34,540 bases of DNA from a virus: positions 1 to 34,540 of the IMG/VR virus record IMGVR_UViG_3300025138_000157; one strand, written 5' to 3'. Shown here in pieces: positions 4,388 through 34,540 of the stretch; positions within the stretch are counted from its first letter, which is position 1; each line of letters starts with the position of its first letter. The position numbers were made by a program, and so were the translations under genes. The notes beneath the pieces are model-generated. The model did no database searches and was not told the DNA's origin. It worked only from the letters and a program-made list of their open reading frames with translations.

Positions 4388-4987
4388 TTAAAAATCATAG
4401 TATCTTTTAAACTCACTCACTTTTATGTGAGATAAATTCGTACATTTTTTTAATTGTTTAGGTATAAAATCATCATCATCTGCTACAATTCTAATGTATC
4501 TTTTACCTTGATGTGCATCACACGTTGATGCTGTTTGCCTTTCCCAGTTGCCAAAGTATGTTGCGGCCTCGCCTTGTCTCTTATAATTGTGTGTTCCTGC
4601 GTATAAGTTATTTACCTTACTTCGGTTGCCTTGAGTGTCCATTGAGCCGTGAAAATCCATGCCTAGCATATAAATTGTATCGTGTGCGTGTGTACTTGCT
4701 AACCATAGTGCTGTAGGACCACTACTCCAACCCTTACTAGGTTGGAAATAATGAAAGCCTTGAAAGGTATGAAACTGTTTATTTGGATTTGTCCAAACTT
4801 CGTGTTCCATTTGCCATTTGCTTTGATTAATTTCAAGTATCATTTTTACGTCAACAGCAACTAGATAATGCGGTTCAAAATGTCTAAACATTGCATTACA
4901 TGCATATACTTTTCCGTAATTTTTAAGTGGATATAAATCTATGTCTTTTCGGCTCTCGCCATTACCTATTACAAAGGCTACAGTCAT
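4388..4987 (-). CDS. Rossmann-like protein related to DUF115/glycosyltransferase-type enzymes
   Basis: This 199-aa protein opens with F-V-I-G-N-G-E-S-R (5-13), then A-C-N-A (29-32), V-A-V-D (43-46), S-S-G-P-T-A-L-W-L-A (88-97) and I-Y-M-L-G-M-D-F (105-112). This order is typical of the DUF115/MAF-like Rossmann proteins, some of which act on sugars or sialic-acid-type substrates. The exact substrate is unknown. It sits within the head operon between two core-region genes and is not part of the T4 set, so it is an accessory insertion. The start has only a weak ribosome binding site (AGGA). A sugar-related role is inferred from fold pattern alone. Confidence 0.5.
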   Translation of the reverse strand: MTVAFVIGNGESRKDIDLYPLKNYGKVYACNAMFRHFEPHYLVAVDVKMILEINQSKWQMEHEVWTNPNKQFHTFQGFHYFQPSKGWSSGPTALWLASTHAHDTIYMLGMDFHGSMDTQGNRSKVNNLYAGTHNYKRQGEAATYFGNWERQTASTCDAHQGKRYIRIVADDDDFIPKQLKKCTNLSHIKVSEFKRYYDF

Positions 4988-6994: not shown

Positions 6995-9328
6995 CTAACG
7001 CCCATTTAAATTACCGTTTAACTTTTCAGTGGCTTTTTTGTTGCCTCTCATTACATCAATTAATCCATCTAACTTATTACTTAGCCATCCGCCTTCGCCA
7101 CCATTAGCATCTTTGGCATCGTCTTTTTTGCCTAAATCACCAGTAATTTCCTTCATTTCTGACGCAGATGCACTACCTGCTACTGCTTCTTCTATTGTAG
7201 GATTCGCTGGTGCTGAAGTAACAGTTCCAGATGCTTCTGGAGAAGCTCCAATTCCTAGTTTTCCTCTAGCCCAATCACCTATTTTTCCTGAAGGTAGCAC
7301 TGCACCAATATAACCTTTAATTGATTCCCAGCTAAACAAATGAGTTATTCCAGCCCATATTGTTTTAAACGCTGTACCAATAGCTCCCATAAATCCGCCT
7401 TCGTCAAATGCTTTTTTAAGATTATCCCAACCTATAACTGCAATAAGTCCACCAACAATTAAACTTGCAATTTTAACAAATGGATTTAATTTTGCTATCA
7501 TTTTAATTAATTTAAAGGTTATAAATCCACCTAGTGCAAGCCAACCAATACCTTCTGTTAAATCTCCAAACGCACTAATAATTTTGTCTTTAAAGGCTTG
7601 GAATAAATTCTTTATTCCATCTTTAGAAAACAATAGGCTAAAAAATTCACTAATTTTTGGTGCATACTTTTCATATAACTTTGTAAACGTTGTCATCATT
7701 TTATCAAACGTTCCACCTTCAGCAAAAAATGCATCTATCTTAGGTGTAAGTTTAGCCCATAGATCTGTAAGATATTTAAATATCTCTTTTACTTTAGGCC
7801 ATAGTGTGTCTTTAACATAGTTCCACATACCGCCTACGCCGCCGGTCATTGCGTCCATTCCTTTACCAGTGATCCAATCCCATAGGCTACTTAGACCTGG
7901 CATAATGTTCGTTGTAAAATACTTACTAGCATCTTCGTACATTGTTTTAGCTTCTTCAGTAGTAGGCATAAAGTCTGCAATTTTATCAGATAAGTCTTGG
8001 AAAATTCCACTGTCAACTATAGCCGCTTGTATGTTACCTTGTATTGTTGCTACTGTCTCAGCAAACGTACCCATCTTTTCTGTAATTTTATCGCGTTTAG
8101 CTTGTTCTTTTGCTGTAGATCCGTCTACTGTTTTTTGTACTCTTTGTATAGAACCAATAACGCCAAGCATTTGGCCTGTACTACTTCCTGCTTTTTCAGC
8201 GGCCTGTACACCTGCATCACCTAAGGTATTTGCAAACTTCATACCGTCTTTTGCAATTCCTGCAACAAAGTTGTTTGCTTGTTCAGCAGTCATGTTCTGA
8301 AGATTTGTAGCTTGGTTCCTAAACGTTTCGTTGTTGGCCATTAACTGTTTTGTCAATGGATCGTTTGCAACTCCGTCTGCCATGTCAAGTAATGCCGCTT
8401 CTAATTCTGGAGATGCCGCCGCCATTTGTTGTAATCTTAAACCAAATTCTTCACCATGTTTATTAATTGCCATTTGGCGTTTAATATCTAGGTTCTTGGC
8501 TTTCATTTCTTCTTCTAATGACTTACGACTTTTACCTGTAAGTTTTGAGATCTTATCAAGTTCACTTGAATATTTTAATGAGCCATCCATTAATTGTTTG
8601 TCTGTCATAAACTGTCGTCTACCAGATGTTTGCATCAATTCACTATAGCTTATAAAGTTTTCGTTTAATTCTGCAGATGTAAATCCTATTTCTTGTAGTC
8701 TCGTACCTAAAGGGCTTTGTCTAAGTTCTTTTGATAATCCTGCAAAACGTCTTGCACCATCTCCTACTGTATTACCAAATATACGTAGGCTCTCACTTTG
8801 TTGACTAACTAGTTCAATAAACTGTTGTTGTGGTATTGCCGCTTCGCCTGCAATTCTAGTAATTTCAAACATGCTGTTACCAAAACTAGCACCTGTTTGT
8901 GTAAGTTGTCTAAAACTATTAATTTGTCCATCTAATAAACCAGATAACATTGTAAGTCCTGGAATAGGAAGATGTTTTGTAAAATCTGATAATTGCTGTC
9001 CACCAAAGGCTAATTCAGTAGCTAATCCTGGTATTGCTCCTACTACTGCTCCTAGGCCTGCTATAAGAGAATTAAGTACTCCTCCAGTAATACTTGCTAA
9101 TCTTCCGCCAAAACTTTCTACTTCTTCACTAGCATTTTTAGTATTCTTAGCAAATTCTTTAGAAGCTTTACTTGCTTCTTTACTAGGACCGCCGCCGCCA
9201 GCACTACCAGTTTGCCCAGTAGGTGTTTTACCGCCTAATGCTTTAAGTATTTCTCTAAGAGTTCTTTCTGAAGCCGCATTTTCAGCTGTTACTTCTCCAA
9301 CTCCTGGAATATCAATTTTTACTGCCAT
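6995..9328 (-). CDS. Probable tail tape-measure protein
   Basis: This 777-aa protein is the best tape-measure candidate. It is long, helical and Ala/Gly/Lys-rich. It has hydrophobic segments at about 79-105 and 590-637, as tape-measure proteins often do. Its N-terminus (MAVKIDIPGVGEVTAENAA) recalls a protein conserved in marine T4-like phages. A Gly-rich linker lies at 31-50. The gene stands back to back with gp26, a probable tape-measure chaperone. It would replace T4 gp29, whose sequence it does not obviously share. A late-promoter-like TATATATA lies upstream at 9346-9353. Other structural roles cannot be excluded. Confidence 0.6.
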   Translation of the reverse strand: MAVKIDIPGVGEVTAENAASERTLREILKALGGKTPTGQTGSAGGGGPSKEASKASKEFAKNTKNASEEVESFGGRLASITGGVLNSLIAGLGAVVGAIPGLATELAFGGQQLSDFTKHLPIPGLTMLSGLLDGQINSFRQLTQTGASFGNSMFEITRIAGEAAIPQQQFIELVSQQSESLRIFGNTVGDGARRFAGLSKELRQSPLGTRLQEIGFTSAELNENFISYSELMQTSGRRQFMTDKQLMDGSLKYSSELDKISKLTGKSRKSLEEEMKAKNLDIKRQMAINKHGEEFGLRLQQMAAASPELEAALLDMADGVANDPLTKQLMANNETFRNQATNLQNMTAEQANNFVAGIAKDGMKFANTLGDAGVQAAEKAGSSTGQMLGVIGSIQRVQKTVDGSTAKEQAKRDKITEKMGTFAETVATIQGNIQAAIVDSGIFQDLSDKIADFMPTTEEAKTMYEDASKYFTTNIMPGLSSLWDWITGKGMDAMTGGVGGMWNYVKDTLWPKVKEIFKYLTDLWAKLTPKIDAFFAEGGTFDKMMTTFTKLYEKYAPKISEFFSLLFSKDGIKNLFQAFKDKIISAFGDLTEGIGWLALGGFITFKLIKMIAKLNPFVKIASLIVGGLIAVIGWDNLKKAFDEGGFMGAIGTAFKTIWAGITHLFSWESIKGYIGAVLPSGKIGDWARGKLGIGASPEASGTVTSAPANPTIEEAVAGSASASEMKEITGDLGKKDDAKDANGGEGGWLSNKLDGLIDVMRGNKKATEKLNGNLNGR

Positions 9329-9402: not shown

Positions 9403-10389
9403 ATGGTAGATAATAATATCCCACCAAACATGGGAAATAAAGGTATGCAAATGGGCATGCCTCAGCAACCGTCAGCAGAAAACCCGGCAATTCCGCCGAT
9501 GCCGCCGACGCAAGCTCAACCAATGCCGGTGCAAGCCCCAGTTGGTAACCCATTAGTTAAACATTTACGACAACCTAAAATCTATATCAAGTTGCCAAGC
9601 GAAGGGCATTACTGGCCGCAGAACGCTTTGACAAAAACAGAGAACGGAGAATATCCAGTTTTTGCAATGACTGCCAAAGATGAGATTACATTTAAAACAC
9701 CAGATGCGTTATTAAATGGGCAAGCAACAGTTGAAGTGATTCAAAGTTGTATGCCAAATATCAAAGATGCATGGCAAACACCTAGTATTGACTTAGATGC
9801 AATTCTAGTTGCTATTAGAATGGCTAGCTTTGGAGAAACAATTGAACTAAGTGCTACTGTTCCAGGAACTGAGATTACAAAAGAGTTTCAGTTAAACTTG
9901 CAAACTGTATTTGATAATTTAATTAGTACAGAGTATGTTGATACTTTTCAAATTGACGGGTTTAAGGTACAAATTAAACCTGCAACATATCAGTTGTCAA
10001 CACAACAAGCAATTAAAGCATTTGAGGAACAACGTATTTTTAGCACAGTTAATGATGATTCATTAGACGACGGCTTAAAATTAGAAAGGTTCCAAAAAAG
10101 TTTTGCTAATCTAACTGACATTAATATTAATGCAGTAGTTGCTAATGTAGTTGCTATTCAACCTGATGGTGATGAGCAAGCTGTAACTAATCCAAAGTAT
10201 CTTAGAGAATTCTTAGAAGGTGCTGAAGCAAAAACATATAATCAAATTGCTGATTATATTAAAGAGCAAAAAGAAAGGTTTACACAAAAACCTTTACAAG
10301 TTACTGCAACACCAGAAGAGATCGAAGCAGGTGCATCGAAAGTTTACGAAATACCAATTGTTTTTGATCAGAGTAATTTTTTCGGCTAA
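9403..10389 (+). CDS. 26: gp26 family protein (baseplate hub / tape-measure chaperone)
   Basis: This 328-aa protein belongs to the T4 baseplate family of gp26. The core contains Y-P-V-F-A-M-T-A-K-D-E followed by a P-D-A-L-L-N-G segment and I-L-V-A-I-R-M-A-S-F-G, which match the conserved family pattern. The first 55 residues are Pro/Met/Gln-rich and absent from T4 gp26 (208 aa). In T4, gp26 is needed for hub assembly and is not in the virion. Its place beside the tape-measure gene fits a chaperone role. It has a late promoter and a good GGAG site. The stop TAA (10387-10389) lies one codon after a T-TTT-TTC slippery heptamer, so a longer frameshifted product is predicted. Confidence 0.85.
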   Translation: MVDNNIPPNMGNKGMQMGMPQQPSAENPAIPPMPPTQAQPMPVQAPVGNPLVKHLRQPKIYIKLPSEGHYWPQNALTKTENGEYPVFAMTAKDEITFKTPDALLNGQATVEVIQSCMPNIKDAWQTPSIDLDAILVAIRMASFGETIELSATVPGTEITKEFQLNLQTVFDNLISTEYVDTFQIDGFKVQIKPATYQLSTQQAIKAFEEQRIFSTVNDDSLDDGLKLERFQKSFANLTDININAVVANVVAIQPDGDEQAVTNPKYLREFLEGAEAKTYNQIADYIKEQKERFTQKPLQVTATPEEIEAGASKVYEIPIVFDQSNFFG

Positions 10390-10438
10390 GGATCTTAACG
10401 TGGAGCCTCGACAAAATCCTAAGCGAGGTTAGGATCCT
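10377..10438 (+). promoter_or_regulatory. Predicted programmed -1 frameshift signal
   Basis: The heptamer T-TTT-TTC (10377-10383), read in the gp26 frame as AAT TTT TTC, fits the X-XXY-YYZ rule for -1 slippage. After a 5-nt spacer, 10389-10398 pairs with 10429-10438 (10 bp, one G-U). An inner 5-bp stem (10406-10410 with 10424-10428) continues directly on the 3' side, with a 7-nt bulge on the 5' side. A further 5-bp hairpin (10436-10440/10445-10449) overlaps it and could compete. The new frame stays open for 76 codons with no usable start of its own until 10473. Confidence 0.7.
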
Positions 10439-10613
10439 CGAAAACGAGGTCAAAGAAATCAAACATAACATTATGAAGTTAGTTTGGTGGATGCGTGGTG
10501 GGTTACAACTCGATGACGCATACTTACTGTGTCGTGAGGATCAAGACATCTTTAACGATATTATCAAAGAAAATTTAGAAACTGCTAAAAAGATTCAACA
10601 GCCGTTTTGGTAG
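10383..10613 (+). CDS. Frameshift extension of gp26 (gpGT-like; position of gp51)
   Basis: In the -1 frame relative to gp26 the reading runs open from the slippery site to TAG at 10611-10613, adding 76 residues for a 403-aa product. The extension is a charged helix (L-D-K-I-L-S-E-V-R-I-L-E-N-E-V-K-E-I-K) followed by V-W-W-M-R-G-G and D-I-I-K-E-N-L-E-T-A-K-K. These motifs resemble a short conserved marine T4-like phage protein next to gp26. No ATG, GTG or TTG occurs before ATG 10473, which has no Shine-Dalgarno site and would discard the helix. In T4 the gene after 26 is 51, another hub-assembly factor. Expression by frameshift is inferred. The alternative is a 46-aa protein from 10473. Confidence 0.65.
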   Translation, partial: RLRILTWSLDKILSEVRILENEVKEIKHNIMKLVWWMRGGLQLDDAYLLCREDQDIFNDIIKENLETAKKIQQPFW

Positions 10614-20791: not shown

Positions 20792-23554
20792 ATGGATCAA
20801 TTAGAACCAAATCAAGTTAATAAACGATCGTCTGGAGTCGGCTTTGCAAAAATGCCTCCGGGTCCTTTTCTAGCAAAAGTAGTCAATCATTTAGATCCTA
20901 AACGTCAAGGAGCATTGCGGGTACAATTATTACCTAACACAGTTAGCGGCTCAGACGATTTAGATGACGGACAATTATTTACAGCTAGGTATTGCTCACC
21001 GTTTTACGGAACTACAGATGTTCGTAGTAACGGAAAAAATAACGACTATTATAATACGCAACAGAGTTACGGATTTTGGGCAGTACCACCTGATCCAGGA
21101 ACTAAAGTTCTTGTTATATTTGCAGAAGGATCTGCAAACCAGTGTTATTGGATAGGATGTGTTCAGGATGAATATATGAACATGATGGTTCCAGGCGGCT
21201 ATCCAGCAGACAAGTCAACTAATATTGTACAAGACGGGATACTAGAGGACTTCAAAGGTAAAAGTTTACCTGTAGGAGAATTTAATAAAAGTATTGGAGC
21301 TAACTCAACAGGACCTCAAGATATACGTAAAGGAAATAATCCAGATAAATTTCCAAGACCTATTAATCCTATGATGTCTTTGACACTTGCAAAGCAAGGT
21401 CTTGAACAAGATGTTATTAGAGGAACAACAACCACAAGTTCAAGACGTGACATTCCTAATACTGTTTATGGTTGGAATACTCCAGGACCTTTAGATAAGC
21501 GTGACGGCAAACCAAAAGGAAAATATGGAGATGTACGAAGTTCAGCTTATATGTTTAGAAGCAGACTAGGCGGATCTGCATTTACAATGGATGACGGAGA
21601 TCCTACTATTCTTAGAAATGGAATAGCAAAAGAAAATCCCGCACTATATTATGATATTGAGAATACTCCTGATAATATTAGTAAGTCAGATGTTACATTA
21701 CCGTTTAATGAACATATTAGATTACGTTCAAGAACAGGTCATCAAATTTTATTACACAACACAGAAGACTTAATTTACATTGGTAATGCAAATGGTACAG
21801 CATGGATTGAATTAACATCAAATGGTAAAATTGATGTGTATGCACAAGATAGTATTAACCTAAGAACTGAAACAGATCTTAACATAAAAGCTGATAGAGA
21901 TATAAACATCGAGTCTGGTAAAGATATTAACTTTACAGCAGGACGTAATTATAAGTTAATGGTTAATAATGATAGAGATGTTAAAACAAATAAAAACGAA
22001 ACTACATTTGTTGGAATGGACAAAAACGAATGGACAGGTAATAACCATACAGTTGCAGTAGGTAGCGACCAAGATATTCAAATTAAAGGAACACAGCGTT
22101 CTACTATTAGTGGAGATTACAACTTACAAGTCAGCCAAGATGGACATATTGCTATAAACGCAAACTTGCACAGTAAAGTAGTTGGCGATTATAGACAAAC
22201 TGTAAATGGTGCATTCAATTTAAATACCGCTGGAGACAATAAATTTACTAGTGGAGCAAGTACACAAATTAAAAGTACTCTTGCAAATAAATTAGATGCA
22301 GGAACATTAACTTCTATTTTAAGTGTAGGAACACATTCAGAAACTGCATCACAAGTACACATGAATAGTACAGTTCCTGCAACACCAGCAGATGGTGCCG
22401 ATGCAATTGGTGATACATTTACAAAATCTGCTACAAGTGCTGTAGTTGATGATAGTGATCAAGTATTAGATCCATCTGATACAGTTTTAAATGATTCATC
22501 TGGTAATCCATTAAGAGTAACAGCAGATGCACTTAGAGCAAGTGTTGCAGTTGAAGCAAACAGACCAAGACGTATTCCAAGACACGAACCATGGGACGGA
22601 CACGAAAACATTAATCCAGCAGGACATACTCCTAGTGCTACAGCAAGTATATTATCACCGTCACCAGAAGTTAGATTACAACAACCTCAGATTGATAAAG
22701 ATAGTGATATACCTGATTACTCAGAAACATCGGGTATCTATAATGCACAAGATGCATACATCCAAGATCCAGTAACAGGTGAGCGTGTAAAAGAAACGTT
22801 TGATGCTGGCAAAATTCCAACTAAAAATACAGATAATGCATCAGGCAAACAGCCAGCAGATCCAGTACCAGTAGATGATATGCAACGGTATTTCTTAAGC
22901 GAACTTATTAAAGGGTTAGGACTAGATCCAATTACATGGAAATCAAATGCACATGCACTAGCAATGGCGTGTGCCCAAGTACAAAAAGAATGTAACTTTG
23001 AACCAAGGTCAGAAAATATGAACTATAGAGTATCAACTCTACAGCGTGTATGGCCAAATAGATTTGGCGGATCAGCAGGCAAGCGTAAAGCTGAAACACT
23101 TGTTGCAGGTGGACCACCTGCTATTGCAAACTCAGTATACGGAAATAGAATGGGCAATGGCTCTTCAGAATCTGGGGACGGATTTAGATACAGAGGCAGA
23201 GGACTTATACAAATTACAGGAACAAGTAATTATAGAAAATACGGCGGACTAGCAGGTGTTGATATTTACAATAATGCTGATATGGCAAACGATCCTACAG
23301 TTGCTACAAAAGTTGCAGTAGCATATTTAAAGAGTAAAAGTGTTACTTGGACAAGTACAGATTTTAATGCTTTAGGTACACAGTTTAAAAAAGCAGTAGG
23401 ATACGCAGATGCTGGTGGATCAAACACAGCAAGCAGAATTGGATTAGGAAAAGGATTTTACCAAAAAATTATTAACAATGAACTAACACCATTAGCAAGT
23501 CTAACAACAACGACACCTATAGATAAAGGTGCAGGAACATCACAGGTACAGTAA
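20792..23554 (+). CDS. 5: Central spike gp5 with C-terminal GH19-type hydrolase
   Basis: This 920-aa protein is the central membrane-puncturing spike. An N-terminal OB domain (about 23-145, P-G-P-F-L-A-K-V-V-N-H-L-D-P-K and C-Y-W-I-G) is followed by a triple beta-helix repeat region (about 350-500, D-L-N-I-K-A-D-R-D-I-N-I-E-S-G-K-D-I type repeats). After a Pro-rich linker (about 555-680) comes a GH19 chitinase/endolysin-like domain (about 690-890) with F-R-Y-R-G-R-G-L-I-Q-I-T-G near 799. Glu733 and Glu793 are likely catalytic. It would degrade peptidoglycan during infection. T4 gp5 instead has a GH24-type lysozyme between OB and helix. The start has a GGA ribosome binding site. The gene is coupled to the next by TAATG. 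Confidence 0.9.
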   Translation: MDQLEPNQVNKRSSGVGFAKMPPGPFLAKVVNHLDPKRQGALRVQLLPNTVSGSDDLDDGQLFTARYCSPFYGTTDVRSNGKNNDYYNTQQSYGFWAVPPDPGTKVLVIFAEGSANQCYWIGCVQDEYMNMMVPGGYPADKSTNIVQDGILEDFKGKSLPVGEFNKSIGANSTGPQDIRKGNNPDKFPRPINPMMSLTLAKQGLEQDVIRGTTTTSSRRDIPNTVYGWNTPGPLDKRDGKPKGKYGDVRSSAYMFRSRLGGSAFTMDDGDPTILRNGIAKENPALYYDIENTPDNISKSDVTLPFNEHIRLRSRTGHQILLHNTEDLIYIGNANGTAWIELTSNGKIDVYAQDSINLRTETDLNIKADRDINIESGKDINFTAGRNYKLMVNNDRDVKTNKNETTFVGMDKNEWTGNNHTVAVGSDQDIQIKGTQRSTISGDYNLQVSQDGHIAINANLHSKVVGDYRQTVNGAFNLNTAGDNKFTSGASTQIKSTLANKLDAGTLTSILSVGTHSETASQVHMNSTVPATPADGADAIGDTFTKSATSAVVDDSDQVLDPSDTVLNDSSGNPLRVTADALRASVAVEANRPRRIPRHEPWDGHENINPAGHTPSATASILSPSPEVRLQQPQIDKDSDIPDYSETSGIYNAQDAYIQDPVTGERVKETFDAGKIPTKNTDNASGKQPADPVPVDDMQRYFLSELIKGLGLDPITWKSNAHALAMACAQVQKECNFEPRSENMNYRVSTLQRVWPNRFGGSAGKRKAETLVAGGPPAIANSVYGNRMGNGSSESGDGFRYRGRGLIQITGTSNYRKYGGLAGVDIYNNADMANDPTVATKVAVAYLKSKSVTWTSTDFNALGTQFKKAVGYADAGGSNTASRIGLGKGFYQKIINNELTPLASLTTTTPIDKGAGTSQVQ

Positions 23555-24547: not shown

Positions 24548-27500
24548 ATGTCATCAACCGACAGACAAAATAGATTGCTACTTGCAGAAGATTGGCAAAA
24601 AGTATATCAAAGTTACCGTAATGCGGAATTCCGTAGCTACGACTTTGACACCCTTAGACGGGCAATGATCACCTATCTAAGACAAAATTACCCAGAAGAT
24701 TTTAACGATTATGTAGATACATCAGAGTACCTTGCACTAATTGATATGATTGCATTCTTAGGTCAGAACATTAGTTATAGAGTTGACCTAAACGCAAGAG
24801 AAAACTTCTTAGAACTAGCAGAACGTAGAGAATCAGTTCTCCGTTTAGCTCGTATGCTTTCATATAATCCTAGACGTAATCAGTGTGCAAACGGACTACT
24901 TAAATTTGAGACAGTAAGCACTACAGAAAATTTAATTGACAGTAATGGCACTAACTTATCAGACCAAACTATTATCTGGAATGACCCTAGTAATGCTAAC
25001 TGGTCAGAACAATTTAGGCGTGTGTTGAATTCAGCACTTCCACAAAACGGAACAGTTGGTAAGCCATCAATAACCAAAGCAATTAATGGAGTACTTACAC
25101 AACAGTATAGATTTACATCTACAGGTAACGATGTTCCTATATATACTTTTAGTAAATCAGTTAACGGTTCTTCAACACAATTTGAAATTGTATCAACAGG
25201 TATTGATACTGACTTTAATGTAATAACAGAAGAAAATCCTGTACCAGGGAATAGTCTAGCATTTTTATATAGAGAAGATGGAAGAGGTTCAGGAAGTTCA
25301 AACTCAGGATATTTTTTACATTTTAGACAAGGAAGTTTAAAATCTAACGCATTTGACGTTTCGGCTCCGTCAGCTAATCAAAGGATTTCGATCGAAGCAG
25401 AAAATATTAATGATACTGATGTTTGGCTTTATGGTTTAAACAGTAATGGTATTCCTCAGAAAATTTGGACAAAAGTTAATTCGACTGAAGGAAACAATGC
25501 AATCTATAATAGTTTAAACAAAAAACTTAAAGATTTTTATGTTGTACAAACTAGATCAGATGACGAGATTAGTTTAGTATTTGCAGACGGCACATTTGGT
25601 AACTTGCCGCAAGGCGGATTTAGAGTTTATTATAGAACTAGTGCTAATAGATCGTTAAGTATTTCTCCAAGTGAATTAACAGATATTACTATTAGTTTTC
25701 CTTATCTTTCTAAGACAGGAACAACAGAAACAATGACTGTTGGCTTAGAACTTAAAACACCAGTAACTAATGCTACTATTAGCGAAACAACTTCGAGTAT
25801 TAGAACTAACGCTCCGCAAACTTACTATACACAAAATAGAATGGTTACTGGCGAAGATTATAATATTGTTCCTTTAACAACTAATCAAGAAATTATTAAA
25901 GTAAAATCAACAAATAGAATTGCTAGTGGTATTAGTAGATATTTTGATCTTAAAGATGCTACTGGAAAATATTCTAGTACAAATTTATATGGCAGTGATG
26001 GAATACTTTATAGAGAGCCATATGAAAGCAAAACGTCTTTTACGTTTGGTACTCAAACAGACATTGAAGGTACTATTGAAAATACAATATTGCCTATTAT
26101 ACAAAATAGAGCAATTAGTAACTTTTACTTTGCAAACTATGCTAAGATTATTGTTAGTGATCTTAATGCTACATGGAAGCAATCAACTAAGACAACTAAC
26201 AGTTCAACAGGACTATTAAATAATATTAATGATGTTGCATATCAACTTGGAACATTTACAGGCGGTTCTTTAAAATATGTAGAAGCTGGAGCATTGCTTA
26301 AATTTAAACCACCAGTAGGATTTTATTTTATTGGTAATGGAGAGCTTACAAGTAACGCATCAGCAAAAGGTGCAAGTACATATAAATGGGTAAAAGTTAT
26401 AAGCGTAGATGGTGCAGGCACAAGTGTTAACAGTGTAACAGGGTTTGGACCAGTTGTGTTTAATGAAATATTACCTGCAAACAGTATATTAGAAGAAGTT
26501 AAACCAAAACTAGTAAAAGACATTTCAACAGATGTTAGATCACAAATTATTGATCAAGTATTTTCATATAAAACTTTTGCATTAAGATATGATCAAGTTA
26601 CAAGAAACTGGCGTATTATTATTAACGAAAATTTAAACACAGTAGATGTGTTTAGTAACGGTAAAACAGGTGATGTAACAAATAACCAACTTGACTCAAG
26701 TTGGCTAATATTATTTGAAACAAACGGAGAAAAATATACAGTTACAAATAGAGGACTTAGATATATTTTTGAAAGCGATAAAGAACTTTCTTTTTACTTT
26801 GATGGACAAAATAAGATTTACGATTCACAAACAGGACAGTTAGTAAAAGACAAAGTTGCAATTATGAACTTTAATACTAAGCCTGACGCACTTACACCAT
26901 TTAATAATGATGTTAATTGGGAAATTGTTAATGCTTTCCGAAACACAGACGGATATATTAACAGCAAAAAAGTAGAAGTTAGTTTCTTTGATTTAAATGA
27001 CGATGGCAGTATTGACGATCCAGATATATTTGATACTGTAGTTGCACCTTTAACAAATACATCTACAAAATATATTTTCTTAAAGAAAGAATCATCTGAT
27101 CAAGGATTTAACAAATATAATTATTATAACGCAGGTACTGCAATTAAAACTGTTACAACAGAAACTGAAATTGGAGCATATAGTCAGTATTCAACAGGTC
27201 AAGTTTTTTATATTATTGATAACGATAACTTTAAAGTACTAACTAATAATGTCCTTGTAGTAACAGCAGATTATAAAGCACACGTTGGCAGATCAGATCT
27301 TAAATTTCAGTATGTACATAGTGCAGATGATGGTAATAGAATTGATCCAAGTGTAAGTAATATTATTGATGTATATATGCTTACACAAACATACGATCAA
27401 AACTACAGAAATTTTATTGCTGGATCTATTGCTAATGAACCTCTTCCACCAAGTACAGATGAATTATTCCAAAACTACGGTGCAGAAATTGGCCAGTATA

Positions 27501-28105
27501 AATCAATTAGTGATGAAGTAATTTATCATTCCGTACAATATAAGCCTTTATTTGGTGTGCATGCACAAGACAATTTACAAGCAACATTTAAAATTGTAAA
27601 GAATAGCGGTGAAGTAGTTAATAACAATGAAATAAAAACACAAGTGATTAGTGCAATTAATTCGTTCTTTAGTTTGCAAAACTGGGATTTTGGAAATACA
27701 TTCCATTTTACTGAACTTGCGACACATATAATGAATAGAACAGCACCAGATGTTGTTAATATTTTATTAGTACCCAAACAAGCATCTCAAGGGTTTGGAA
27801 GTTTATATGAAGTTAAAGCAGAAAATAACGAAATCTTTATTAACGATGCTACAGTTGAAGATATTGAAATTATTGATTCTGTAACAGCATCTAGAATCCA
27901 ATCGGCAGGAAATGTAGTTACATCTACAGGAACTATTAATACAGGAATTAAGAGTCAAGCATTATCAACAACTACAACAACTACTACAGCAACTACTACT
28001 AGTACAACAAGTTCAAGTAGTTCAAGTAGTTCAAGCAGTTCGGGTAGTTCAGGATCAAGCGGTGGAAGCGGAAGCTCCGGCGGCGGCGGAGGTTATGGAT
28101 ACTAA
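24548..28105 (+). CDS. 6: Baseplate wedge protein gp6
   Basis: This 1185-aa protein is the gp6 wedge scaffold, which forms the inner ring of the baseplate by dimerising around it. The N-terminus (F-D-T-L-R-R-A-M-I-T-Y-L-R-Q-N-Y-P-E-D, about 34-52, and L-I-D-M-I-A-F-L-G-Q-N-I-S-Y-R-V-D) is diagnostic. T4 gp6 is 660 aa, so this one is nearly twice as long, with extra beta-rich domains. The last 48 residues are a Thr-, then Ser-, then Gly-rich tail ending Y-G-Y. It is coupled to the next gene by TAATG. Confidence 0.92.
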   Translation: MSSTDRQNRLLLAEDWQKVYQSYRNAEFRSYDFDTLRRAMITYLRQNYPEDFNDYVDTSEYLALIDMIAFLGQNISYRVDLNARENFLELAERRESVLRLARMLSYNPRRNQCANGLLKFETVSTTENLIDSNGTNLSDQTIIWNDPSNANWSEQFRRVLNSALPQNGTVGKPSITKAINGVLTQQYRFTSTGNDVPIYTFSKSVNGSSTQFEIVSTGIDTDFNVITEENPVPGNSLAFLYREDGRGSGSSNSGYFLHFRQGSLKSNAFDVSAPSANQRISIEAENINDTDVWLYGLNSNGIPQKIWTKVNSTEGNNAIYNSLNKKLKDFYVVQTRSDDEISLVFADGTFGNLPQGGFRVYYRTSANRSLSISPSELTDITISFPYLSKTGTTETMTVGLELKTPVTNATISETTSSIRTNAPQTYYTQNRMVTGEDYNIVPLTTNQEIIKVKSTNRIASGISRYFDLKDATGKYSSTNLYGSDGILYREPYESKTSFTFGTQTDIEGTIENTILPIIQNRAISNFYFANYAKIIVSDLNATWKQSTKTTNSSTGLLNNINDVAYQLGTFTGGSLKYVEAGALLKFKPPVGFYFIGNGELTSNASAKGASTYKWVKVISVDGAGTSVNSVTGFGPVVFNEILPANSILEEVKPKLVKDISTDVRSQIIDQVFSYKTFALRYDQVTRNWRIIINENLNTVDVFSNGKTGDVTNNQLDSSWLILFETNGEKYTVTNRGLRYIFESDKELSFYFDGQNKIYDSQTGQLVKDKVAIMNFNTKPDALTPFNNDVNWEIVNAFRNTDGYINSKKVEVSFFDLNDDGSIDDPDIFDTVVAPLTNTSTKYIFLKKESSDQGFNKYNYYNAGTAIKTVTTETEIGAYSQYSTGQVFYIIDNDNFKVLTNNVLVVTADYKAHVGRSDLKFQYVHSADDGNRIDPSVSNIIDVYMLTQTYDQNYRNFIAGSIANEPLPPSTDELFQNYGAEIGQYKSISDEVIYHSVQYKPLFGVHAQDNLQATFKIVKNSGEVVNNNEIKTQVISAINSFFSLQNWDFGNTFHFTELATHIMNRTAPDVVNILLVPKQASQGFGSLYEVKAENNEIFINDATVEDIEIIDSVTASRIQSAGNVVTSTGTINTGIKSQALSTTTTTTTATTTSTTSSSSSSSSSSSGSSGSSGGSGSSGGGGGYGY
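27962..28102 (+). repeat. Thr/Ser/Gly low-complexity tail of gp6
   Basis: Short tandem repeats of ACA/ACT codons, then AGTTCA-type units, then GGC/GGA units encode about 47 residues. The order is Thr-rich, an 11-Ser run, Ser-Gly repeats, five Gly and Y-G-Y. The repeat DNA is prone to slippage, so length may vary between relatives. Confidence 0.85.
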
Positions 28106-31100
28106 TGGCACAAGATGAAAGCCCAATCCCAACAAGCGGGGATGCAAAAAGAAGAACAGCTGATTTACTACCAAGATATTTTAGAACAACAGCAAACAAA
28201 AAGTTTCTAAGTAGCACAATTGATCAGCTAACGCAACCCGGGTCGATTGAAAAGATTGATGGCTATATTGGTCGTAGAGATGCCAAAGCATTTAAGTCCA
28301 CTGACAATTATGTTTCTGATGTTTCGGCAGAGAGAGAAGACTATCAACTTGAACCAATTGCAACAGTTACAGATAACTTAGGTAATACAACGTACTACGG
28401 TGATTATCGAGATTATATAAACAGTAGCAAAATTAGAAATACAGACAATGCTAATCACAGCCTATATAGTTCACAAGAATATTATGCTTGGGATCCTCAT
28501 ATTAATTGGGACAAGTTTGTAAACTTTAGAGAATACTATTGGTTACCTTCAGGACCTGACGAAGTTCCAGTTTACGGAACAGCTCGAAATATTATTAGTA
28601 CTTTTGCAGTAGCTAGACAAGATAATGTAGATAATAATTCTTATATTTTTAGCAAAGAAAATAAAGTAAGTAATCCAACACTTACCTTGTATAGAGGGCA
28701 AACATATAACTTTGATATAGATGCTATTGATATGCCTTTGAGTATTAGAACTAGTAATAGTATTAACGATGATACAAACTTATATAACATTGGTGTTAGC
28801 CAACAAAAAGTAGAGCAAGGTAGTATGACTTGGACAGTTGATTTAGAGTCACCTAATGCGTTATATTACACAAACGGAAACGATCCTGAAGCATCAGGTC
28901 TTATCATTATTAAGGATATTAGAGATAATACACAACTTAATGTAGGCGAAGAAATTATTGGTAAGAAAACTTATACTATGCAAAATGGTTACGAATTAAC
29001 TAATGGCATGAAAGTAAAGTTTTACGGAACAATTACACCAGCCAAATACGGAGAAGGCAATTGGTATGTTGAAGGTGTTGGCGAATCTATTACATTAATA
29101 GCAGAAGAAGATTTAGTTATTACTGCCGATTATTTAACCGACGTTTCAACAGAATTTGATGCACAAGGATTTAGTGCATTGCCTTTTGACGATGCAACTT
29201 CATACGCTATCCTAAAAGATTATATTGTTATTAATAAAGCATCAAAAGATGGAAACCAATGGTCACGTTATAATAAATGGACACATAAAAGTGTCATTGA
29301 AACTATTGCGGCAGTTAATAACGTTCCTGTAGTACTAGATCAAACTTATAGAGCTACAAGACCAATTATTGAATTTGACTCAGGACTAAAACTTTATAAT
29401 TTTGGTACACAATCAAAAACATCAGTTGACGTAGTTGATACAGTTACTAAAGATGTGTTTTCAGATATTGAAGGACAAGCAGGTTACTTTGTTGACGGTG
29501 TTGAATTAGTTACAGGTATGCGAGTATTGTTTACAGCAGATCCGGATAGTTTTGTTGCTGGTAAAATTTATGAAGTAGGTTTTATTAGTCAGAATGGCCA
29601 AGCTCAAATTGCACTAAAGGAAACTACAGATACTACTCCTTTAACAAATGAAACAGTTCTTGTAAAAGCAGGCACAAACTATAAAGGTAAGATTTTTTAT
29701 TATAACGGTACTACATGGAAACAAACACAAGATAAAACAAAAGTTAATCAACAACCGTTATTTGATTTGTATAATGATGCAGGAGCACAACTTTCTACAC
29801 TAGAGTCAAGTACATTTGCTGGTAACAAAGTGTTTAGTTATAAAGTTGGAACAGGTGCTAACGATTCTCAATTAGGATTTCCGTTAAGTTATAGAACCAT
29901 TGAAAATAGCGGTGATATTGTTTTTGACTTTAACTTATTAGCAGACACGTATCAATATGACGAAGTTGCTGATGTATTTACAGTTAGTACTGACACTGCA
30001 CTATTAAGACAGTATACTGGTAGAACTTCATACACAAATGTATCAGGATGGACTAAAGCACCGACTAAATCTACACAACCAGTTGTTGAACAATTTACAG
30101 TTGCAGAAAGAACAAATAATTTTATTATTGATGTTTATTTAAATAGTGGTAACTTAAATGATTTAGACATTAAAGTTTATGTAAACAGTACTCGTAAAAG
30201 AGATGGCGTCGATTATACAATCAATCGAATTAACGGATATGCATATGTTGCATTTTATACAGACTTAGTAGAAAGTGATAAGTTAGTTTTAAAAACAACA
30301 TCAAGTGCTAAAAAAATACAAGGATTAGGACATTACGAATTTCCAATCAACTTTGAAAAAAATCCGCAGAACGAAAACGTTACAACCTTTACACTAGGCG
30401 AAGTATTAGACCATGTTGATAGTATTGTTGATAATGTAATCGGGTTCAAAGGCTTATATCCGGGTGTTAGTAATTTACGTGATTTAGGCACTCCATCAAA
30501 GCACGGTTTAAAATTTGTACAACATAGTGGACCAGTTAATCTTGCATTATATAATTTAACAGATAAAGACTATGATGCTATTGAAGCTATGAAATGGTCA
30601 GGGTTTGAATACATTAAATTTAAGAGAGAATTTTTAAGAACAGCAAATGATCTTGGATTTGAAGGATACGATAAAGTACATGTTGACAGAGTACTTACTG
30701 AACTTAATTCGAACAAAACTAATAAAGATGCATTTTATTTTAGTGATATGTTAGCCGTTGGCGGTGAAACATCAGTAAAGCATAACATTGAAGATCAATC
30801 TCAAACAATATTTTCGTTAACACGTGGTATTGACTTTACAACTTTGTCAGAAAAAGCAGTATTAGCATACCTAAATGAAAAGCAACTAGTACTTAACAAA
30901 GACTATACAGTTAGTACAGATGGATTTTTAACATTATTAAATGCTCCGAGTACTGGAGATGTATTAGACGTTTATGAATATGTTTCAACTGATGGTTGTT
31001 GGGTTCCGCCAACTCCTACTAAGTTAGGTTTGTATCCTAAGTTTACTCCTGAAATATTTTTAGACGACACTTATATTAAAACACCAACAGACGTAACAGG

Positions 31101-34100
31101 TCCTTATAAAGTATATGGCAGAGATGAAACAACAACATTGTCTTATAAAGGAAAAGTTGGTTGGTTCTATCCGTTATACACTGATGAAGTATCAGCACAA
31201 CAAGCAGATATTGCCGCAAGCGGAAACGGCACAGCCCATGTTCATATATTTGCAGGAAGTAATAAATTATTTTACATGCCAAACGGCACAATGAATCATG
31301 CTACTAATGACAGTCAACTATATTCTGAATATGAAGGTGCAAGAGCAATGCTACAAGGACATGACGGATCTTTGTGGAGATGCTTTGGAGACTTTAGAGA
31401 TAATTTGTTATTAGATCTTGAAAAAAGAATTTATAATAATTTAAAACTTCCTTATAACGAAAACATTTTAAATATTGCAGACTATGTTCCTAGTAAAAAT
31501 AGAACTACTGGATTTACTAGAAGACAAGTTTCTAAAACAATGATTTCGGAATTTAACAGTTGGTTAGAAACTGTTGGTAGCCCAGACTATGTATCTAATA
31601 CAGTTTATAGAGCTGGTGACGGATTTACATATAACTATGCATCAGCAGGAGATCCTAACAACAAACCTCTAACAGGTTTTTGGAGATCAATTTACAAAGA
31701 CTTTTATAACACAGATAGACCACACAGTCATCCGTGGGAAATACTTGGCTTTAAAGAAAAGCCAATTTGGTTTGATTCTGAGTATGGGTCAGCACCTTAT
31801 ACTAGTAGTAACTTATTACTTTGGGAAGATTTGTCTAAAGGTATTGTAAGAGGGGCTGAAGGTTCAAAGGTAACATATAGAAACAAGTTTAAAAACGAAG
31901 ATATTTACAAGTACATTCCAGTTGATGCTAACGGAAACTTATTAGCACCAAGTGCAACAGGTTATGCTGTAGGAAATATTCCTACTACTAATGGTAACGA
32001 GTTTGCATTTGGCGATGAAGGTCCTGTAGAAACAGCATGGCGTAGAAGTTCACACTATCCATTTAGTTTAATGATATCGTGGGCATTAAATCAACCAGCA
32101 CAGTTTTTTGGATTAGCGTTTGATCGAAGTAGAATTGTACGTAATGGCGCAGACCAATTAGTTTATAAAGATACAAGTAAGCGTATTGAATTAAACAAAT
32201 TAGTATTTCCAAATAGTGCAACAGATTCAGCAAGAGTATTTACAGCAGGTATTGTAAATTATATGCAAGGATATTTAGTTGACAACGATACGCTTAAATT
32301 TAATGAATATACAAAGAATTTAAAAGTAGTTGAAAACAAACTAGGATCTAAAATTGGCGGGTTTACACAAAAGTCAAAATTTAAATTAATATTAGACTCA
32401 AGAACACCAACAAATGAAGGCAATGTTTTTGTACCAGAAGAAAATTATAAAATACATTTAACTAAAAGTATTCCTTTAGATGTATATTCCTATAGTGGAG
32501 TTATAGTTGAAATAGCTCCTGGAGGATATATTGTAAAAGGATATGACAAAGATAATCCGGTATTTAAATATTACCCTATTAGAAGAAAAAACAGTGATGT
32601 AGTAATTAATGTTGGAGGAGTTAGTGAAAATTTCCTAACTTGGACAACAGGAAAAACATATCAAGTAGGACAGATTGTTGAAATATCTGATTCTTATTAT
32701 AGAGTTAAAATTTCGCATACAGCAGGTGATGCATTTAATCAAGATAATTTTCAAAAATTAGCCGAACTACCAGAAGAAGGTGGAGCAACAGCATATGTAT
32801 CAACTAACTTTGAAACAGAACTACAAGAAATGCAATACGGAACATTGCTTAGAGAAAAACAAGATGTAGTTGATTTATTACTTGGGTATCAACGATATTT
32901 AACTAGTGTAGGTTTCACGTTTGATAATTTTAATCAAGAGATTGAAGAAATTGAAAATTGGGTACTAAGTGCAAAAGAATTTTTATTCTGGACTACGCAG
33001 GCCTGGGATAGCGGAACTATTCTTACACTAAGTCCAAGTGCAAGACAAATTGAATTTACAAAAGAGTATACTGTTGTTGACGACATATACGATAATTTTT
33101 ATGATTATAGTTTATTAAAAGCAGACGGTAAACGATTGCTTGCAGATTTTGCAACAACCGAGCGTGATAATACAAATGATTTTGGAATCTTTGTAAGAAA
33201 TACAAATGATGGAATATATCATCTTAAGATTCCTGTAGTACAGCACGAACACGCAATTATTATTGATAATAATACTATCTTTGGCGATGTAATTTATAAT
33301 AGAGCCCAAGGTTACAGACAAGAAAGAATTAAAGTAAAAGGATATCGTTCAGATGAATGGAATGGCTCATATAATATTCCAGGATTTATTTTTGATGATG
33401 CAAAACCAACTGAATGGACTTCTTGGCAAGATTACTCAATTGGAGCATTAGTAAAGTACAAACAATTTTATTATGTTGCTCCAAAAAATATAACTGGAAC
33501 AGAAAAATTTGTAGATTCATCCTGGGTAAGATTAGACGAAAAACCAGAACAGAAGTTATTACCTAACTTTGATTATAAAGCAAGACAGTTTGCAGATTTT
33601 TACGATCTTGATTCTGATAATTTTGATATAGAACAGCAAAAGTTAGCACAACATCTAACAGGATATCAAAAACGTAAGTATCTTGAAAATATTATTAACG
33701 ATGATATAAGTCAGTATAAATTTTATCAAGGTGCTATACAAGATAAAGGAACAAGAAATGTCCTTACAAAACTTTTTGATAAATTAGGAAGTGCTAATAA
33801 AGATAGTTTAGAATTTTATGAAGAATGGGCTGTACGTGTAGGACGTTATGGAGCAACAACTGGTGACGAACAGTTTGATCTTATTCTTGATGAAGAAAAA
33901 TATAGACAAGAACCACAACTAATTGAACTAGTTGATGCAATTAATCCACAAGATACAAGTTTAATTTATAGATTAGATAGAAATGGAGTGTATGTTACAC
34001 CAGATAACTATGATCACAAGCCTTTACCAACAAAATATTTTAATGATGACAATAGTTATACTAAGTCAGCAGGTTATGTAAATCCTTTAGACGTTACAGG

Positions 34101-34540
34101 ATCATTAGTATCCTATGATGCTATTTTAGATCAGCCTTTATATTCTTCAGGTAGTTATATTTGGACTGCTATAGATAAAAGTCAGCAAACATGGGGAGTG
34201 TATAAAACCCAAGCAACAGATTACCGAATTACAGCAGTATCTGAAAGCCAGCAAAATATATTTACAATTACTTTAGATAAACAGGCTAATTTTACAAAAG
34301 GTGATATCATTGGTATCCATGATATATCAGACACAACTAACGGATATTATAAAGTTGATAGTATTGAGCTTAATGTTGTTAAACTAGCATCAGTTGAAGG
34401 CGAAGATGTTGACGCAACAGAAGACGATGCAGAAGTAAACGGCTTTATTACTGAACTTAAAAAAGCAAGACTATCTACACTATCACTTGCAAACGACAGT
34501 ATTAAGAAAGATCCAAACAATTTGTTTAGTTTAACCGGAA
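28105..34540 (+). CDS. 7: Giant baseplate wedge protein, gp7-like, cut by the window end
   Basis: From ATG at 28105 (in TAATG with gp6) the frame stays open to the window edge, at least 2145 codons. Order after gp6 and the marine T4-like pattern (W-D-P-H-I-N-W-D-K-F-V-N-F-R-E-Y-Y-W, about 132-149) suggest the wedge initiator gp7, though T4 gp7 is 1032 aa. The protein is beta-rich with many repeated modules. Two resemble CBM5/12-type carbohydrate-binding modules: about 1513-1553 (W-T-T-G-K-T-Y-Q-V-G) and 1771-1811 (W-T-S-W-Q-D-Y-S-I-G-A-L-V-K-Y). It would link the wedge to peripheral baseplate parts and perhaps touch the cell surface. The gp7 assignment is by position. Confidence 0.7.
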   Translation, partial: MAQDESPIPTSGDAKRRTADLLPRYFRTTANKKFLSSTIDQLTQPGSIEKIDGYIGRRDAKAFKSTDNYVSDVSAEREDYQLEPIATVTDNLGNTTYYGDYRDYINSSKIRNTDNANHSLYSSQEYYAWDPHINWDKFVNFREYYWLPSGPDEVPVYGTARNIISTFAVARQDNVDNNSYIFSKENKVSNPTLTLYRGQTYNFDIDAIDMPLSIRTSNSINDDTNLYNIGVSQQKVEQGSMTWTVDLESPNALYYTNGNDPEASGLIIIKDIRDNTQLNVGEEIIGKKTYTMQNGYELTNGMKVKFYGTITPAKYGEGNWYVEGVGESITLIAEEDLVITADYLTDVSTEFDAQGFSALPFDDATSYAILKDYIVINKASKDGNQWSRYNKWTHKSVIETIAAVNNVPVVLDQTYRATRPIIEFDSGLKLYNFGTQSKTSVDVVDTVTKDVFSDIEGQAGYFVDGVELVTGMRVLFTADPDSFVAGKIYEVGFISQNGQAQIALKETTDTTPLTNETVLVKAGTNYKGKIFYYNGTTWKQTQDKTKVNQQPLFDLYNDAGAQLSTLESSTFAGNKVFSYKVGTGANDSQLGFPLSYRTIENSGDIVFDFNLLADTYQYDEVADVFTVSTDTALLRQYTGRTSYTNVSGWTKAPTKSTQPVVEQFTVAERTNNFIIDVYLNSGNLNDLDIKVYVNSTRKRDGVDYTINRINGYAYVAFYTDLVESDKLVLKTTSSAKKIQGLGHYEFPINFEKNPQNENVTTFTLGEVLDHVDSIVDNVIGFKGLYPGVSNLRDLGTPSKHGLKFVQHSGPVNLALYNLTDKDYDAIEAMKWSGFEYIKFKREFLRTANDLGFEGYDKVHVDRVLTELNSNKTNKDAFYFSDMLAVGGETSVKHNIEDQSQTIFSLTRGIDFTTLSEKAVLAYLNEKQLVLNKDYTVSTDGFLTLLNAPSTGDVLDVYEYVSTDGCWVPPTPTKLGLYPKFTPEIFLDDTYIKTPTDVTGPYKVYGRDETTTLSYKGKVGWFYPLYTDEVSAQQADIAASGNGTAHVHIFAGSNKLFYMPNGTMNHATNDSQLYSEYEGARAMLQGHDGSLWRCFGDFRDNLLLDLEKRIYNNLKLPYNENILNIADYVPSKNRTTGFTRRQVSKTMISEFNSWLETVGSPDYVSNTVYRAGDGFTYNYASAGDPNNKPLTGFWRSIYKDFYNTDRPHSHPWEILGFKEKPIWFDSEYGSAPYTSSNLLLWEDLSKGIVRGAEGSKVTYRNKFKNEDIYKYIPVDANGNLLAPSATGYAVGNIPTTNGNEFAFGDEGPVETAWRRSSHYPFSLMISWALNQPAQFFGLAFDRSRIVRNGADQLVYKDTSKRIELNKLVFPNSATDSARVFTAGIVNYMQGYLVDNDTLKFNEYTKNLKVVENKLGSKIGGFTQKSKFKLILDSRTPTNEGNVFVPEENYKIHLTKSIPLDVYSYSGVIVEIAPGGYIVKGYDKDNPVFKYYPIRRKNSDVVINVGGVSENFLTWTTGKTYQVGQIVEISDSYYRVKISHTAGDAFNQDNFQKLAELPEEGGATAYVSTNFETELQEMQYGTLLREKQDVVDLLLGYQRYLTSVGFTFDNFNQEIEEIENWVLSAKEFLFWTTQAWDSGTILTLSPSARQIEFTKEYTVVDDIYDNFYDYSLLKADGKRLLADFATTERDNTNDFGIFVRNTNDGIYHLKIPVVQHEHAIIIDNNTIFGDVIYNRAQGYRQERIKVKGYRSDEWNGSYNIPGFIFDDAKPTEWTSWQDYSIGALVKYKQFYYVAPKNITGTEKFVDSSWVRLDEKPEQKLLPNFDYKARQFADFYDLDSDNFDIEQQKLAQHLTGYQKRKYLENIINDDISQYKFYQGAIQDKGTRNVLTKLFDKLGSANKDSLEFYEEWAVRVGRYGATTGDEQFDLILDEEKYRQEPQLIELVDAINPQDTSLIYRLDRNGVYVTPDNYDHKPLPTKYFNDDNSYTKSAGYVNPLDVTGSLVSYDAILDQPLYSSGSYIWTAIDKSQQTWGVYKTQATDYRITAVSESQQNIFTITLDKQANFTKGDIIGIHDISDTTNGYYKVDSIELNVVKLASVEGEDVDATEDDAEVNGFITELKKARLSTLSLANDSIKKDPNNLFSLTG

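Follow-up and report, generated by a model that had tools for sequence, protein, structure and literature searches.

A probable programmed −1 frameshift at the end of a gp26-like tail assembly chaperone gene in marine and jumbo relatives of phage T4

Here we report that, in a T4-like phage fragment recovered from IMG/VR, a gp26-like gene and the 76 codons that follow it very probably constitute a single recoded tail assembly chaperone (TAC) gene, from which a short protein (TAC-N) and a longer one (TAC-NC) would be produced by −1 programmed ribosomal frameshifting. An earlier note on this DNA had read the locus as a pair resembling gpG/gpGT of phage lambda, a reading that is supported, at the level of sequence, by the slippery heptamer, the relation of the frames, the downstream stem and selection on the −1 frame. 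The frameshift site is a real feature of the fragment. What appears to be new is its distribution among jumbo and marine phages, together with a covarying stem that has re-paired between clades.

A gp26-like gene ending in a slippery heptamer

The window, by which we mean the whole stretch of 34,540 nucleotides analysed (IMG/VR record IMGVR_UViG_3300025138_000157), is a linear 34.5 kb fragment of a T4-like phage carrying gp23, gp20, gp5-like and gp25 genes. It belongs to an uncultivated marine clade whose nearest relatives are jumbo phages of the Atu_ph07, Phosso and PA5oct type. The features discussed below are the following:

9403-10389, + strand: gp26-like gene, putative short form TAC-N, 328 aa (PF12322, phrog_150, AF2)
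10374-10376, + strand: −1-frame TAA immediately 5' of the heptamer, pinning the shift to it (sequence)
10377-10383, + strand: slippery heptamer T_TTT_TTC, in gp26 register (invariant in 128/128 related sequences)
10383-10613, + strand: −1-frame extension, putative TAC-C domain, 76 codons, stop TAG at 10611-10613 (ORF, pN/pS, AF2)
10387-10389, + strand: TAA, zero-frame stop of the short form (sequence)
10389-10399, + strand: 5' arm of the stem (strength against codon shuffles; covariation)
10428-10438, + strand: 3' arm of the stem (strength against codon shuffles; covariation)
6995-9328, − strand: 777-aa ORF, adjacent and divergent, tape measure candidate (by position)

The product of the gp26-like gene matches PF12322 (T4_baseplate) at E=1.2e-11, above the gathering cut-off, and phrog_150 (baseplate hub) at E=3.6e-14, which makes it homologous to the known TAC-N proteins of the T4 gp26 family; its AF2 model has a pLDDT of 84.9. 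The family assignment rests on PF12322; a profile of the window gp26, compared directly with the one T4 gp26 sequence, gave no link between the two. The role listed for T4 gp26 is that of a hub assembly chaperone (PMC3004832).

The gene ends in AAT TTT TTC GGC TAA, so that a heptamer of the X_XXY_YYZ type, T_TTT_TTC, stands in the zero-frame register required for slippage, exactly where it had first been noticed. Given the −1-frame TAA directly 5' of the heptamer, the two frames overlap by only ~12 nt. Among the 22 window genes scanned, an in-register TTTTTTC occurs in gp26 only.

Two scans of IMG/VR yielded 130 loci, with some contigs present in both. The sequences that carry both parts of the gene number 128 (the window, five isolates and 122 IMG/VR loci, in which some contigs recur) and split into 42 lineages below 85% nucleotide identity. 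The earlier note looked to related phages for conservation of the heptamer, and there TTTTTTC is invariant (128/128), the downstream ORF always lying in the −1 frame. Phe-Phe is preceded by AAT, AGT, CAT, GAT, GCT, ACT or CGT, codons that specify seven amino acids and always end in T; as this third base is non-coding in the −1 frame, its invariance speaks for constraint at the nucleotide level. Under gp26 codon usage, and for lineages that are not fully independent, log10 P over the 42 lineages is about −10.6 for the invariant third-base T and about −5.5 for the first Phe being encoded by TTT. Positions C7 and G8 are likewise invariant (42/42 lineages), which proves less, since the conserved Arg codon read in the −1 frame starts with these two bases.

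Coding selection on the −1 frame reaches back to the heptamer

As reported at the outset, the −1 frame offers 76 open codons (10383-10610). Across the 42 lineages it contains no stops, against more than 100 in each of the other frames, and in close relatives its pN/pS is 0.23 over codons 3-33 and 0.14 over codons 34-78, compared with 1.1-2.5 in the other frames. The claim that no start codon precedes the first helix also holds: the first ATG, GTG or TTG is codon 33 (ATG 10473), in the middle of a predicted helix spanning residues 9-37. Upstream of this ATG, pN/pS is 0.23 in the −1 frame versus 1.1 and 2.0 in the other two, which indicates that selection acts on the −1 frame from the heptamer on, 5' of every potential start that the window offers; codon-level conservation thus reaches back to the shift site, as the frameshift reading anticipated.

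These observations weigh against the alternative of a separate gene in the −1 frame, on which translation would start by reinitiation or internally once the gp26 stop has been passed. Small separate ORFs are annotated at the junction in databases, and junction starts do exist in a few relatives: Pseudomonas phage Cygsa01 carries TAATG but lacks TTTTTTC, phiM9 has T_TTT_TTG plus TGATG, and PBECO4 has TAATG besides the heptamer. We nevertheless consider a separate gene very unlikely in the window, where no start occurs before codon 33. Among 82 distinct sequences, −1 codons 3-12 hold no ATG, GTG or TTG in 59, and a start with a Shine-Dalgarno-like motif in only 3; moreover, purifying selection extends 5' of any start, and the T before Phe-Phe is kept as third base although the amino acid changes.

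The AF2 model of the extension has a pLDDT of 87.7, with helices at residues 9-37, 43-46 and 51-70. No PHROG or Pfam family covers it, the one exception, phrog_18291, being the truncated ORF of PBECO4. Foldseek against the PDB matched neither predicted domain at E<=0.001 (the HK97 TAC structure 2ob9 appeared only at E 3.6), so that neither shows a fold match there to the lambda gpG / HK97 gp13 structural family, and PDB sequence searches returned chance-level matches only (HSP90, coiled coils). By hhalign, the window C-domain aligns in register with the cyanophage-type C-domain at 21.7% probability and has no match to T4 gp51; its homology to the C-termini of the cyanophage proteins or of gp51 is only suggestive.

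A downstream stem with compensatory changes

Five nucleotides after the heptamer, within the ~5-9 nt at which a stimulatory structure would be placed, begins a stem of 11 bp, including one G-U pair; the earlier note had located it correctly and counted 10 bp for the outer stem. None of 100 codon shuffles produced a stem as strong. The minimum free energy of 10384-10460 taken alone is unexceptional (z −1.3), and the claim for a stem therefore rests on its strength relative to codon shuffles and on the counts of paired changes. In 31 of the 42 lineages the best downstream stem exceeds codon shuffles (P<=0.05), and about a quarter have no significant stem by this test; in most lineages the 5' arm starts 4-7 nt past the heptamer.

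The stem is thus kept in most lineages, and with compensatory changes. Counted on structures chosen from the same sequences, and with relatedness not removed by the controls, changes on both sides of the 11-pair stem in the window clade (29 sequences) number 18 cells against 6.1 expected, and compensatory cells in a more distant clade, where this 5' arm finds its partner ~20 nt further on, number 18 against 8.1 expected. The covariation score was reached in 0/500 shuffles in either clade, and in the window clade pairing falls from 80% to at most 54% when the 3' partner is slid by one base. RNAalifold returned no single consensus fold and no consensus pairs in either clade, probably because partners differ both between and within clades.

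The stem also bears on transcriptional slippage, in which RNA polymerase would slip on the T6 run and add one U, giving the same product from a conserved core that is indeed a homopolymer (T7 in XacN1 and CM1). A run of six T is short for transcriptional slippage. We hold this reading to be highly improbable, given that the run is six T followed by C in 128/128 sequences and has not drifted longer as slippage would favour (C7 being constrained by the −1 Arg codon as well), and that a conserved stem 4-7 nt downstream, with its compensatory changes, is in keeping with ribosomal frameshifting. That the frame was broken by an indel error in sequencing or assembly, for which a homopolymer is a usual place, or that the −1 frame is open by chance, has a next to negligible probability in view of the codon-level selection and of the same frame relation in 122 IMG/VR loci (some duplicate fetches) and more than 12 isolate genomes. 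The three rivals (separate gene, transcriptional slippage, assembly error) were weighed and set aside.

Under programmed −1 frameshifting, the majority of ribosomes would terminate at the TAA at 10387 and release TAC-N (gp26, 328 aa). A minority would slip back by one base on T_TTT_TTC, with tRNA-Phe in the P and A sites re-pairing in tandem (U_UUU_UUC) and the stem 5-6 nt 3' of the heptamer stimulating slippage, and would continue to 10613 to yield a TAC-NC of ~403 aa with the junction S-N-F-F-R-L-R. By analogy with lambda gpG/gpGT, the N part may coat the tape measure protein and the C part recruit tail tube subunits. We infer both the occurrence and the efficiency of slippage.

Cultured phages, T4 and the annotation of the long form

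TTTTTTC followed by a −1 ORF at the end of gp26 is present in Atu_ph07, Phosso, PBECO4, RaK2, MIJ3/PA5oct and Munch, as well as in Serratia BF, Hallingskeid, SCTP-2 and Vibrio 2.275. XacN1 and CM1 carry T_TTT_TTT with a −1 ORF at the same place, and cyanophage S-RIM8, Agrobacterium OLIVR6 and Aeromonas 65.2 share the same site and −1 ORF. In Acinetobacter Meroveus and in T4, gene 26 runs into gene 25, with neither heptamer nor extension. Where the heptamer is weakened or lost, as in phiM9 and Cygsa01, a switch from frameshifting to reinitiation is possible, and Cygsa01 suggests that the one has been replaced by the other. The stop of gp26 and the second ORF overlap in TAATG in the Cygsa01 locus (L148, 1809-1982) and in TGATG in the phiM9 locus (L147, 2154-2333).

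None of the records examined annotates the joined product. The extension is usually given there as a hypothetical protein, as a "baseplate hub assembly catalyst", or not at all, and since these records split or truncate the gene, their annotations omit the long chaperone. Looking for the octamer TTTTTTCG where a PF12322 gene ends offers a simple way to correct them. Among the papers in the library searched, none deals with this frameshift in the above jumbo phages and none with the stem.

Frameshifting is reportedly conserved in several T4-like groups, with T4 itself said to use genes 26 and 51. The earlier note had taken these two genes to be consecutive in T4, in the order 26-51, and had suggested that here they may be joined by recoding, with the −1 ORF as gp51. 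Both points need correction: in T4 they are divergent neighbours, and the −1 ORF falls short of a complete gp51, whose counterpart is the entire frameshift product. Thus gp26 matches the N-terminal part of T4 gp51 (blastp E 1.7e-6, one-sequence database), and a profile of five cyanophage-type C-domains matches gp51 residues 199-249 at 19.9 bits (best of 500 shuffles, 6.7). With an N part like gp26 and a C-terminus like the C-domain, gp51 looks, from these sequence matches, like the long (N+C) form made by a separate gene. The window gp26 shares the PF12322 family with T4 gp26; T4, unlike the window, has two divergent genes and lacks the heptamer as well as a −1 ORF following gene 26.

A 2016 review described the lambda-type tail frameshift as conserved "except T4" (PMC5009743), an exception long listed and one on which the present loci bear. 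Because the shift site recurs in distant relatives, in jumbo phages as well as in a large marine clade of uncultivated phages, the two-gene arrangement of T4 looks derived. We lean slightly towards a scenario in which frameshifting is ancestral in a broad T4-related assemblage that includes the RaK2, 121Q, PA5oct and Atu_ph07 jumbo phages, T4 being the derived exception, and in which the stem was rebuilt between clades, its 5' arm staying ~5-7 nt after the heptamer as the partner moved from ~45-55 to ~64-77 nt downstream. The re-pairing of the stem and the distribution among jumbo phages are the parts worth following.

Relation to described frameshifted chaperone genes

The TAC genes of T4-like phages were identified by Vladimirov, Gautam and Davidson (2022, Virology 566:9-15). 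According to later papers that draw on this work, some T4-like phages do not frameshift but encode the short protein in one gene and a long fusion in another (PMC10885494), and poly-T shift signals occur in T4-like TAC-N genes (PMC12846349). The earlier note's belief that the strategy had not been described for T4-like phages is thereby overturned, and this kind of frameshifted TAC gene was, on those accounts, already known. As far as the same accounts go, T4-like TAC-N/TAC-NC likewise combine a gp26-family short form, a poly-T −1 site near the 3' end and a recoded long form; the window clade differs in the build of its C-domain and in its covarying stem.

In lambda gpG/gpGT (Levin 1993; Xu 2004; PMC5009743), a −1 slip near the end of the tail chaperone gene gives a minor extended form, as we propose here. 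The lambda heptamer is G_GGA_AAG, as opposed to T_TTT_TTC; no solved TAC could be matched to the window proteins by sequence or by fold; and the tape measure candidate is divergent rather than downstream. The TAC genes of the Vandenendeviridae and Andersonviridae (phage Adele, PMC12846349) also have a poly-T −1 frameshift, deduced by comparison, and a C-domain annotated as hypothetical, but belong to different phage families and have the core GTTTTT.

Tape measure candidate and other genes of the window

The 777-aa ORF sits between portal and gp26, back to back with the latter, and has no Pfam or PHROG match. At its position RaK2 has an ORF annotated as similar to tape measure protein, and PA5oct one whose product is a structural protein detected by mass spectrometry; we regard it as a tentative candidate for the tape measure gene.

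Between the capsid genes, a 199-aa ORF (4388-4987) matches phrog_30607, and its first 50 residues only match alpha-2,3-sialyltransferase CST-I (E 2.4e-4, below the curated cut-off). A 1185-aa ORF (24548-28105) is followed by one of at least 2145 aa that runs off the right end (28105-34539), and their position after gp25 suggests that both encode large baseplate wedge proteins. The 920-aa protein encoded at 20792-23554 combines a T4 gp5 trimerisation domain with a C-terminal match to glycoside hydrolase family 19 (chitinase/lysozyme), which would make the tail-spike enzyme a different one from T4 lysozyme.
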